64,000 nucleotides of DNA from an uncultured Clostridia bacterium (lineage in GTDB: Bacteria > Bacillota > Clostridia > Lachnospirales > Cellulosilyticaceae): assembly GCA_937981575.1 (NCBI GenBank), contig CALJNR010000012.1, positions 124,001 through 188,000 on the forward strand, in the 5' to 3' direction. Both the position numbers and the translations under genes were made by a program. The notes under the pieces are model-generated. The model had not been told where the DNA came from. It was given only the letters and a program-made list of their open reading frames with translations, and searched no databases. Within the stretch, counting starts at the first letter, position 1. Every line of letters starts with the position of its first letter. This document shows positions 1 to 32,980 of this stretch, in pieces.

Positions 1-437
1 TATTTTCCTATTTCAAGGGCCTTACTTATCATTGCTTTCATCGAATTAAAAGCTGTAACATTGGCTTCATAAGAGCGGCTTGCTGAAATCATATTGACCA
101 TCTCTTCTATCATATTAACATTTGGGAGTTGAACATACCCTTTTTCATCTGCATCTGGGTGTGTAGGGTCATAGACAAGAGGGAATGGTTTATTATCTTC
201 TACTATTTCAGAAACTCTTACCCCATTATTTCTAGAACTTATATGCTTATTTAAAACCTGGTCAAAACTTTCTCTATTGTTCATTGATTCAAATATAACT
301 GCTTTTCTTTTATAGGGCCCGCCTTCTGGCGTTCTTGTTGTATTTGCATTTGCTATATTTTGTGAAATAATATCTAATCTTAACCTTTGAGCTGTTAAAC
401 CCGATGTTGATGTATCCATCGACCCAAAAAAACTCAT
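1..437 (-). CDS. flgC: Flagellar basal-body rod protein FlgC (3' end cut by window edge)
   Basis: FlgC is a proximal-rod subunit of the flagellar basal body, exported by the flagellar type III system. The 145 visible codons start with MSFFGSMDTSTSGLTAQRLR and run through the N-terminal rod motif (DIISQNIANANTT) to the typical C-terminal helix (SYEANVTAFNSMKAM). The last full codons read ALEIGK and the next two bases are TA, so the stop codon most likely falls at the window edge and the protein is essentially complete. It lies 19 nt downstream of flgB in the same direction, as in the standard flgB-flgC-fliE operon. Expression should depend on the riboswitch-controlled promoter ahead of flgB. 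Confidence 0.95.
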   Translation of the reverse strand, partial: MSFFGSMDTSTSGLTAQRLRLDIISQNIANANTTRTPEGGPYKRKAVIFESMNNRESFDQVLNKHISSRNNGVRVSEIVEDNKPFPLVYDPTHPDADEKGYVQLPNVNMIEEMVNMISASRSYEANVTAFNSMKAMISKALEIGK

Positions 438-456
438 ACTGTATCCCCCTTAATAT

Positions 457-825
457 TTATTTAATGGTTTGTAAGATCGTTTTAAAACGACTTAGCTGCG
501 AAGTAGTTCTAGATATCAGCGTATCATATTTCAATTTAACTTTAGCTGCCTCAGCCATTTCGACATCAATATCTATATTATTACCATCCATTCTATAGGA
601 ATAATTTTGTTTATCAATATAAACTTTAGGATCAATCTGATTCATATTAATGTTTTCAATACCTTTTTTATCAATTTCTTGAGCCAGTAAATTTTCAAAA
701 GCAACATCTTTTCTTTTATAACCAGGCGTATCTACATTGCTTATATTATCGCTGATTACACTATACCTTAGCATAGTGGCATCAAGCACTTTATTCATAA
801 TATCTATATTGCGAAACATGTCCAT
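457..825 (-). CDS. flgB: Flagellar basal-body rod protein FlgB
   Basis: FlgB is another proximal-rod subunit and is usually the first gene of the large flagellar/chemotaxis operon. The 122-residue product has normal family length. It carries the N-terminal rod signature (MLRYSVISDNISNVDTPGYK, residues 18-37) and a C-terminal amphipathic helix that packs in the rod. The ATG follows an AAGGGGG ribosome site by seven bases. It heads the minus-strand run into flgC. About 380 nt upstream lies a c-di-GMP-I riboswitch and, further up, a consensus sigma-A promoter, so rod assembly is probably coupled to the c-di-GMP motility/sessility switch. Confidence 0.96.
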   Translation of the reverse strand: MDMFRNIDIMNKVLDATMLRYSVISDNISNVDTPGYKRKDVAFENLLAQEIDKKGIENINMNQIDPKVYIDKQNYSYRMDGNNIDIDVEMAEAAKVKLKYDTLISRTTSQLSRFKTILQTIK

Positions 826-1158
826 TGTATTCCCCCTTCTTCGCTTCTCATCAAATTACTAGTTATGACTTTATCTTTTTTATTAATCTTCTCATTCACC
901 CAATGCCTTCATAACAAGTATCAAAATATCTATTCATATATATACCTCATTATATATTTAAACGTGACATAAATCAATAAATATAAACTGGTATATAAAG
1001 CAATCTACCTACCATACCTTAAGCCACTATGTGCTTTTCCCTGTTCTCTTCTTTTCATCTTATTGTATTATGTTACACATACAGTTTATCGTTGTAAATA
1101 ACTGTCACCCTTCCCTTATATTGTGATTTTTCAAATTATTCTATTATTTATTATTTTC
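826..1158 (-). other. Long untranslated leader between riboswitch and flgB
   Basis: This AT-rich stretch has no open reading frame of note on either strand. It would be the distal part of the flgB mRNA leader, after the riboswitch expression platform. No further hairpin with a T-run was seen. A second, sigma-D-type promoter could hide here but none could be supported. Confidence 0.5.
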
Positions 1159-1212
1159 AAAAAAATAAACCATGACATATACCATGATTTTTATTATAAA
1201 ATACACATGGTA
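1159..1212 (-). terminator. Expression-platform terminator of the c-di-GMP riboswitch
   Basis: On the minus strand, ACCATG at the 3' edge of the aptamer (1206-1211) can pair with either of two downstream CATGGT copies (1181-1186 or 1169-1174). The second copy is followed at once by TTATTTTTTT, which makes an intrinsic terminator. Because ACCATG directly abuts the conserved GGGTTACC of the aptamer, ligand binding could decide which pairing forms. The mechanism and its direction (on or off) are inferred. Confidence 0.55.
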
Positions 1213-1288
1213 ACCCGACTATCTTAGTTTTCCAACCTTAGACTCGTAGCTTTGCGTCTCTATTTTTCAATAGATTTGCCCTTCTAAC
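1203..1288 (-). ncRNA. Cyclic di-GMP-I (GEMM) riboswitch upstream of flgB
   Basis: The minus strand carries the class-I c-di-GMP aptamer core in order: GGGCAAA (1277-1283), a short hairpin with loop TTGAAAA, GACGCAAAGC (1249-1258), GTCTAAGG (1237-1244) and GATAGTCGGGTTACC at the 3' end. These match the known GEMM layout of GCAAA element, P1 hairpin, ACGCAAAGC, CTAAGG and GGGTTACC. It lies between a consensus promoter and flgB. In Clostridioides difficile a class-I c-di-GMP riboswitch sits ahead of the flgB operon and represses it when ligand is bound. The same role is inferred here. Confidence 0.9.
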
Positions 1289-1357
1289 ACTGATAAACAT
1301 ATTTAATTTTACATTTTTTTTGCATATTCTAACATTATATACGTTAATTATTAATAA

Positions 1358-1387
1358 ATTATATAGCATTTTCTATTAATTTGTCAA
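1358..1387 (-). promoter_or_regulatory. Sigma-A type promoter for the flgB leader
   Basis: On the minus strand, TTGACA (1382-1387) and TATAAT (1358-1363) are separated by 18 bp. Both hexamers match the consensus exactly. A transcript starting near 1351 would run through the c-di-GMP riboswitch and then into flgB. Confidence 0.75.
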
Positions 1388-1419
1388 CACTACCTTCAAG
1401 TTTGTGCCAAAATCTTCTA

Positions 1420-1464
1420 AATTTTAACAGGGCCTTAAACTCTTCTTAAGGCCCTGTTAAAATT
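1420..1464. terminator. Bidirectional intrinsic terminator after spoIIM
   Basis: Perfect 19-bp arms (AATTTTAACAGGGCCTTAA and its complement) enclose a 7-nt loop. It ends the proC-nudF-spoIIM transcript and insulates the flgB promoter that starts just beyond it. Confidence 0.9.
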
Positions 1465-1517
1465 TTATCCTATTCACCTGATCCATCTATACAGCACTTC
1501 CTGTCATAATCTTTATA

Positions 1518-29800: not shown

Positions 29801-32443
29801 TTATTTTTTTAAACTCTCAATACGTTCTAAAACAACATTGAGCATTGCCTCATATTTTTCCCTTTTTGCACGCTCTTCTTCTATAAGTTTAGCAGGTGCT
29901 TTGGCAACAAATCCTTCATTTGAAAGCTTTTTATCTACCCTCTCCACTTCCATCTGAAGCTTTTCCTTCTCTTTTTGAAGTCTTTCTAGTTCTTTCTTAA
30001 GGTCTACTAAATCTGCAAAAGGCACATACAATGAAGCATTCGGAATAATACTGGATACCGCATCACTTTCAATACCCTCTTTATCTTTTTGAACAACAAC
30101 TTCTGATGCAAAAGCTAATACACCGAAGAAGAGTTTTCCTCTTTCAAAAACATCAATAATCTTAGGTAATTCAGAAACAACAAATACTTTAGCTTTTCTG
30201 GACGGCGGAACATTCATTTCACTTCTTAAATTACGAATATTACGTACTGCCCCTTTAATCAATTCGATTTCCTCTTCATCCTCAACAAAATGCCACGCAT
30301 TACTAAAGGCTGGCCACTCAGAAACCATAATGCTTTCTTCTCCGCTTTGAAGACTCATAAATATCTCTTCCGTAATAAATGGAATATATGGATGAAGCAT
30401 CTTCAGCACGTTAGTCATAACTGTTCTAAGTGTCCATAGAGCTGCTGGTCTCGTACTATCCTCTCTATTATAAAGACGAGGTTTTACCATTTCGATGTAC
30501 CAATCACAGAATTCTTCCCATGCAAAATCATAAAGCTTCTGTACAGCTATCCCTAATTCATATTTATCCATATTATCAGTAACTTCTTTAGCTAAAGTAT
30601 TCGCTTTAGAAAGAATCCACCTATCCGCAGCAGTAAGGTTATCCGGCATACCGCTCATCTTTTCATCTGTATCATCAAAGTTCATTAAAATAAAGCGTGC
30701 TGCGTTCCAAAGCTTGTTGCCAAAGTTACGATTTGCTTCAACCCTTTCATAATAAAAACGCATATCATTTCCAGGTGCATTCCCTGTTACTAGTGTAAGC
30801 CTAAGCGCATCTGCTCCATACTTTTCAATCACTTCAAGCGGGTCTATTCCATTTCCTAATGACTTGCTCATCTTGCGTCCTTCAGAATCTCTAATGAGTC
30901 CATGGATCAGGACATCTTTAAAAGGAACTGCTCCCATTTGCTCAAGTCCTGAAAAAACCATGCGAACAACCCAGAAAAAGATAATATCGTAGCCTGTAAC
31001 CAGCACACTGGTTGGATAAAAGTATTCCAAATCCTTTGTTTTTTCCGGCCATCCAAGGGTTGAAAAAGGCCATAAGGCTGAACTAAACCATGTATCTAAT
31101 GTATCTTCATCTTGAATCAGACTGTGACTGCTGCATTTGCTGCATTTTTGAGGATTTTCCCTTGCAATAATAATTTCGCCGCATGCTTCGCAGTAATAAG
31201 CAGGAATTCTATGTCCCCACCATAGCTGTCTTGAAATACACCAGTCTCTGATGTTTTCAAGCCAATGCAGATAAGTTTTTCCAAATCTTTCAGGTACAAA
31301 ACGAAGATCCCCATCATGAAGCGCTTTTATTGCCGGCTTTGCCAATTCTTCCATTTTAACAAACCATTGTGCTTTAACCATAGGCTCTATAACACATTTA
31401 CATCTATCGTGGGTTCCTACATTATGAGCATGAGGTTCCACTTTGATAAGATATCCTAAGTTCTCAAGATCCTTAACCATTTCTTTTCTTGCTTCATAGC
31501 GGTCAAGTCCAGCATATTTGCCAGCCAGTTCATTCATTCTGCCATCATCACTAAGCACGCAGACTTGCGGAAGATTATGACGTACTCCTACTTCAAAGTC
31601 GTTAGGGTCGTGAGCCGGTGTAATTTTAACAACGCCTGTTCCAAACTCCATGTCTACATAGTCATCTGCAATGATTGGAATCTCTCTGTCCATCAGAGGA
31701 AGCCTTACTTTTTTCCCTATTAAATGAACGTATCTTTCATCTTTGGGATTCACTGCAACAGCTGTGTCCCCAAGAAGTGTTTCCGGTCTTGTTGTTGCAA
31801 GATTGATAAACTCATCTGTACCAACAATCGGATATCTAAGGTGCCAAAAGCTTCCTTCTTTTTCAGTATGCTCAACTTCTGCATCTGATATGGACGTTCC
31901 GCATTCCGGACACCAGTTAATAATTCTGGCACCTCTATAGATATAGCCTTTTTCATAAAGTTTAACGAAAACCTCCTGAACAGCATTCGAAAGACCTTTA
32001 TCCATTGTAAAACGTTCTCTTTCCCAGTCACAGGAACTTCCTAATTTCTTAAGCTGCTCAATAATACGTCCGCCGTATTGCTCTTTCCATTCCCAAGCCC
32101 GTTCCAAAAATCCTTCTCTTCCTAAATCTTCTTTGGCAATACCTTCTTTGTTCAGCTGTTCAACAATCTTTACTTCCGTTGCAATGCTGGCATGATCTGT
32201 TCCTGGCATCCATAAGGCATTGTATCCCTGCATGCGTTTATATCTAATTAAAATATCTTGCAAGGTATTATCCAGTGCATGGCCCATATGAAGCTGTCCT
32301 GTAATATTGGGAGGCGGAATAACAATTGTAAAAGGTTCTTTTTGGGAATCTGCTTCTGCATGAAAATAACCTTTATCTATCCACTTTTTATAAAGCTTTT
32401 CTTCTACAATACTTGGATCGTATATTTTTTCTAATTCTTTCAT
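29801..32443 (-). CDS. valS: Valyl-tRNA synthetase
   Basis: ValS charges tRNA-Val. The 880 residues show the class-I HIGH box as HMGH (52-55) after PPPNITGQ, the CP1 editing domain with GTDH near 81 and the [13 protein letters not shown] segment, a zinc-like knuckle pair (CEACGEII and CSKCSS), the KMSKS loop at 524-528, the anticodon-binding helix domain, and the C-terminal tRNA-binding coiled coil. The start follows AGGAGG. It is preceded by a small membrane-protein gene and a T-box leader, so both are probably induced when valine tRNA is uncharged. Confidence 0.97.
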
Positions 32444-32715: not shown

Positions 32716-32924
32716 TAAAAAAGAGCCTTTTCATCCTTAATTTAAGGACGAAAAAACTCGTGGTACCACCTTAATTCTTTACAATCATGTAAAGCACTCT
32801 CACTGCTGTAACGGGCAGACCCGCTATTTTCTACTATTATTTCAAAAACAGTGCTCAAAAGCTACCTTCTAATATGCTTTACGCAAGAAGACTTTCAGCT
32901 TGTTAATCTTCTCTCTCTATCCGC
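32716..32924 (-). ncRNA. T-box leader (predicted tRNA-Val sensor)
   Basis: On the minus strand the T-box motif AAGGTGGTACCACG lies at 32759-32772. Just downstream is the terminator CGTCCTTAAATTAAGGATG (32732-32750) followed by a T-rich run, and upstream a stem I region with AGAGAG (AG bulge). A TATAAT at 32931-32936 suggests a start near 32924. A GTA triplet in GAAGGTAGC could be the valine specifier, but I could not fold stem I to confirm this. Downstream genes are a small membrane protein and valS. Confidence 0.92.
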
Positions 32925-32980
32925 AGTCATATTATACTCCTCTTTATCATCGCCTATATTATTTTTTTATCATTCTTATT

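Follow-up and report, generated by a model that had tools for sequence, protein, structure and literature searches.

A c-di-GMP-I riboswitch of predicted OFF type ahead of flgB, with a conserved promoter-like element beyond its terminator, in a genus of Lachnospirales

If a riboswitch for c-di-GMP stands ahead of flgB, does the flagellar operon as a whole come under its control? The question is raised by a leader near one end of a stretch of 64,000 nucleotides of DNA (hereafter the window) from an uncultured member of the Cellulosilyticaceae. The genes that follow the leader are those of the usual early flagellar operon, in the order flgB, flgC, fliE-fliF-fliG-fliH-fliI ... motA-motB ... fliP-fliQ-fliR-flhB, with FlgB, FlgC, FliE, FliF, FliG, FliI, MotA, and a CheY-type response regulator checked against Pfam. 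The same genome carries 12 GGDEF matches and 7 EAL matches, so c-di-GMP is very likely both made and degraded in this bacterium. The features of the region are collected in Table 1.

Table 1. Features of the flgB leader and its surroundings, in window coordinates
Feature	Coordinates	Strand	Remarks
Inverted repeat, 20 bp, perfect	1419..1465	.	Probably terminates the gene before it (1518-2096)
Distal promoter (P-distal), TTGACA-18 nt-TATAAT	1358..1387	-	12/12 consensus matches, sigma-A-type
5' side of predicted closing (P1) helix	1298..1313	-	UGUAAAAU (1313-1306) and AUAUG (1302-1298)
c-di-GMP-I riboswitch aptamer (RF01051)	1206..1290	-	80.5 bits, E 3e-14, model positions 1-87 of 87
Putative antiterminator, 5' strand, UACCAUG	1206..1212	-	Overlaps the ligand-contact CC of the aptamer and its closing strand
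Predicted intrinsic terminator, hairpin of 9 bp (AAAUCAUGG/UCAUGGUUU) followed by A and U7	1159..1190	-	Fold -6.7 kcal/mol
Putative antiterminator, 3' strand, CAUGGUA	1180..1186	-	Lies in the 5' arm and loop of the terminator
Promoter-like element (P-proximal), TATTTATTGATTTAT...TAAATATATAAT, TTGATT-17-TATAAT	949..983	-	Conserved; 123 nt before flgB start
flgB, first gene of the operon	457..825	-	ORF; Pfam Flg_bb_rod; GGGGGA ribosome-binding site just upstream
flgC	3..437	-	Operon runs on beyond the window

The original prediction, made from the letters of the DNA, began the leader with a consensus promoter, and the distal promoter indeed departs from the consensus at no position. Its placement predicts that transcripts begin near 1351, in which case the leader would run for about 526 nt to flgB and the terminated RNA would be about 190 nt long. 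The distance of about 380 nt given in the same prediction is confirmed as well, since 381 nt separate the end of the aptamer (1206) from the ATG of flgB (825). Farther upstream, the inverted repeat probably terminates the preceding gene, so the flgB leader should rely on its own promoters. That gene, on the minus strand, encodes a membrane protein with no match in Pfam, SpoIIM-like by eye only.

A complete GEMM aptamer had been claimed, with a search of Rfam suggested as a check, and the search finds one: the match to RF01051 covers the full length of the model and far exceeds the gathering score of 35 bits. On its sequence, the assignment of the aptamer (1290-1206) to the c-di-GMP-I class is secure. 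It sits in a 5' leader, between a promoter upstream and a putative terminator and antiterminator downstream that would form its expression platform, and it outscores the flgB copies of two relatives in the genus (G004 and G003). In the closing helix, UGUAAAAU is predicted to pair with AUUUUAUA (1202-1195) and AUAUG with CAUGU (1209-1205), a duplex put at -7.7 kcal/mol; the helix is inferred, and covariation gives it no support in this species.

The aptamer lies upstream of flgB in all five genomes of the genus that were examined. Their flgB leaders, together with a second leader from G002, make up the six that were compared, and all six share a promoter (TTGACA and an AT-rich -10 at the equivalent place), an aptamer with CCAUG at its end, and a hairpin that contains CAUGG and is followed by a run of T's. 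The second G002 leader (C245; L139 6950-6530, minus strand) is a near-identical run of promoter, aptamer, and terminator before a gene for a methyl-accepting chemotaxis protein, and the module seems to have been duplicated.

The CCAUG at the 3' end of the aptamer, identical in every leader, and the CAUGG within the terminator hairpin could form a duplex of -8.3 to -12.4 kcal/mol. In aptamers of this class, the CC of CCAUG is the conserved end that touches the ligand; as it lies within the antiterminator strand, the bound aptamer and the antiterminator exclude each other. Since the pairing of UACCAUG with CAUGGUA is also incompatible with the terminator, c-di-GMP should favor the terminator, as in an OFF switch. 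The prediction is thus of a terminator and an aptamer-overlapping antiterminator that are mutually exclusive, the anatomy by which an OFF switch like Cd1 of Clostridioides difficile would be recognized. At low levels of c-di-GMP, UACCAUG of the aptamer would pair with the CAUGGUA of the terminator, letting polymerase read through into flgB. With c-di-GMP bound, UACCAUG would be held in the aptamer, the hairpin (1190-1167) would form, and transcripts of about 190 nt would stop at the run of T's (1165-1159).

The spacing of the competing strands varies. In four leaders, 15-22 nt link the aptamer to the terminator, and in two flgB leaders (G002b, G003; L008, L010) the linker is about 175 nt, with the competition of CCAUG and CAUGG kept. 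In G002b, a long hairpin predicted for the linker would bring the two together.

A switch of the opposite sign, in which c-di-GMP blocks termination and raises flgB expression, is highly improbable: the 3' strand of the aptamer pairs with the 5' arm of the terminator, so ligand should free the terminator, and the flgB copy known by experiment, Cd1, is OFF (PMC3649979; PMC6366702). What speaks for such a switch is that ON as well as OFF riboswitches for c-di-GMP are known (PMC6366702) and that the other copies in the present genome precede putative exported proteins.

How strong is the terminator? The T-run hairpin of the original prediction is found, with arms AAATCATGG (1190-1182) and TCATGGTTT (1175-1167), an A, and seven T's (1165-1159), but it needs a qualification: on its own it is weak (-6.7 kcal/mol, with 2 G-C pairs among 9), and the support for it as a putative terminator is its conserved position and its CAUGG core, as drawn from comparison with relatives. 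A stock terminator scan does not list the hairpin (1190-1167), because the scan demands three G-C pairs. It is the weakest of the six, the other five having energies of -13.3 to -21.9 kcal/mol. In four of those five, the energy of the terminator exceeds that of all 40 shuffles of its own stretch; the G003 terminator falls within its shuffles, and in the present leader a non-specific hairpin elsewhere in the stretch came out ahead of the terminator. When the entire leader was folded as a single sequence, the result was uninformative, being no more stable than shuffles.

The predicted closing helix of the aptamer also differs here from that of the other five leaders, and the tetraloop-receptor strand reads CUAAGA instead of CUAUGA. 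Perhaps, then, the riboswitch is decaying, with resemblance to the aptamer kept and little control left in this species. The weakest of six terminators, a divergent closing helix, and the replacement of U by A in the receptor strand all speak for decay. Nonetheless, we think it improbable, because the aptamer still scores 80.5 bits, above two of the other flgB copies, the promoter and the CCAUG/CAUGG pair are intact, and the change in the receptor strand also occurs in the G002 copy that precedes the chemotaxis receptor. A working switch is the reading we keep, though the weak terminator and the divergent closing helix leave room for termination that may be incomplete in this species.

The control of flgB may also be limited by what lies after the terminator, at 983-949, where a second promoter-like element is found (TATTTATTGATTTATGTCACGTTTAAATATATAAT). 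A search for this motif allowing up to three mismatches gave exactly one match per genome, always upstream of flgB, in seven genomes of three genera: the five members of the genus, G023 (Sporanaerobium hydrogeniformans; its L056 has the same sequence upstream of flgB), and G005. A looser form of the motif is recognizable by eye in G007. None of G023, G005, and G007 has an aptamer at flgB. Two genomes at the level of the order also match at three mismatches. A wider regulon for the motif was considered and rejected, as the genus genomes hold no further copies at three mismatches or fewer. Literature searches on the family, or on promoters situated after a riboswitch, turned up nothing of use.

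The simplest reading of this distribution is that the proximal element looks like the ancestral flgB promoter, upstream of which the genus added a gated one. Lying after the terminator, it would bypass the riboswitch, and if it is active, c-di-GMP could only lower transcription of the operon and not abolish it. Were the operon transcribed only from the promoter before the riboswitch, one would look for none beyond it, but a conserved promoter-like element is observed downstream of the terminator. Control of the flagellar operon by c-di-GMP is thus probably partial, falling short of full shut-off. One might argue instead for full control as in C. difficile, with the distal promoter the sole active one, no promoter at 983-949, and the operon shut off by c-di-GMP. 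The distal promoter is, after all, a perfect match to consensus, and in position and length (about 526 nt) the leader is similar to that of Cd1. For C. difficile, the study that placed the leader downstream of Cd1 before a reporter ruled out a promoter in that stretch (PMC5386303). However, nearly every base of the proximal element is conserved in all members of the genus and in relatives that lack a flgB riboswitch and need some promoter, and full control seems to us unlikely.

We consider it likely that a terminating c-di-GMP-I switch of the OFF type acts on the distal promoter, that the proximal promoter is ungated, and that c-di-GMP lowers rather than abolishes transcription, the promoter at 983-949 supplying flgB transcription beyond the reach of the riboswitch. 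What the sequences show is the identity of the aptamer and the conservation of the promoter, of the competing pairings, and of the proximal element; within this reading, we infer the binding of ligand, the direction of the switch, the activity of each promoter, and the partial rather than full control. The statement that c-di-GMP turns the operon off does not survive in that form, since the conserved promoter-like element past the terminator would bypass the switch. The broader suggestion, that c-di-GMP controls motility, keeps the aptamer, the OFF-type anatomy, and the GGDEF/EAL enzymes on its side, and is softened from shut-off to probable partial control.

As for origins, we lean slightly toward a history in which one genus acquired a ready-made module of promoter, riboswitch, and terminator ahead of an flgB promoter that was already there, with a near-copy placed before a chemotaxis receptor, so that c-di-GMP would tune expression above a constant basal level and would not serve as an on/off switch. 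Members of the family outside the genus show no c-di-GMP-I aptamer at flgB in the stretches read, and none was found at 60 other FlgB loci, with flanks, from named genomes. Among the 57 best-scoring aptamer loci from the order and the phylum, two (G312, L150; G160, L151) have a FlgB gene immediately after them. The arrangement recurs in scattered lineages of the phylum and is not universal.

The present genome has three c-di-GMP-I aptamers. One of the others (L002) precedes a putative exported protein whose neighboring genes were named by eye as glycosyltransferase and glycoside-hydrolase-like, the other (L003) precedes another putative exported protein, and Pfam has no match to either protein. 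Both aptamers fit a c-di-GMP program of surface functions. Aptamers in three species (L003, L014, and L017) precede related putative exported proteins. The window also holds a T-box leader (RF00230, 128.8 bits; 32741-32959, minus strand) directly upstream of a gene resembling that for valyl-tRNA synthetase (29801-32443).

As read from sequence, the locus would extend direct control of the flagellar operon by c-di-GMP to an uncharacterized genus of Lachnospirales. Should the proximal promoter prove active, the locus would also warn against equating a riboswitch ahead of flgB with full on/off control, and close relatives would provide a natural comparison of gated and ungated flgB promoters.

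In C. difficile, an invertible flagellar switch lies in the leader, with long inverted repeats flanking about 154 bp. An equivalent was sought in five leaders and rejected, as their best inverted repeats were no better than those of shuffles. A pair of 27 nt with 70% identity (964-990/1082-1108) was suggestive; shuffles gave pairs of equal quality, and it is not common to the relatives.

Compared with Vc2 and other aptamers of RF01051, the present one is alike in its full-length match, GAAA tetraloop, GACGCAAAGC core, and ligand-contact CC. It differs in the A for U of the receptor strand and in a 3' strand, CCAUG, that in this genus appears specialized for antitermination. In the loci of G312 and G160, too, the aptamer stands immediately before a FlgB gene, and a GC-rich hairpin comes after it, but the genomes belong to other classes and distant families, and their leaders are much shorter.

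The closest known system is Cd1 (Cdi1_3), with a terminated RNA of about 160 nt and a promoter 496 bp upstream of flgB; raised c-di-GMP lowers flgB three-fold (PMC3649979). In common with it are a class I aptamer, a sigma-A-type promoter, a short terminated leader, a long leader to flgB (about 500 nt), the type of operon downstream, and the OFF logic, as predicted here. On the other side, the present terminator is weak, relatives outside the genus lack a riboswitch at flgB, and a conserved promoter-like element follows the terminator, a real difference of layout. The likeness to C. difficile that was originally drawn holds for OFF-type termination anatomy on an flgB leader like that of Cd1 (PMC3649979, PMC5386303, PMC6366702); the proximal promoter-like element is extra, and common descent is unsupported. 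The predicted mechanism is the known one, Cd1-like, and it is the layout with a probable second promoter that sets this leader apart.
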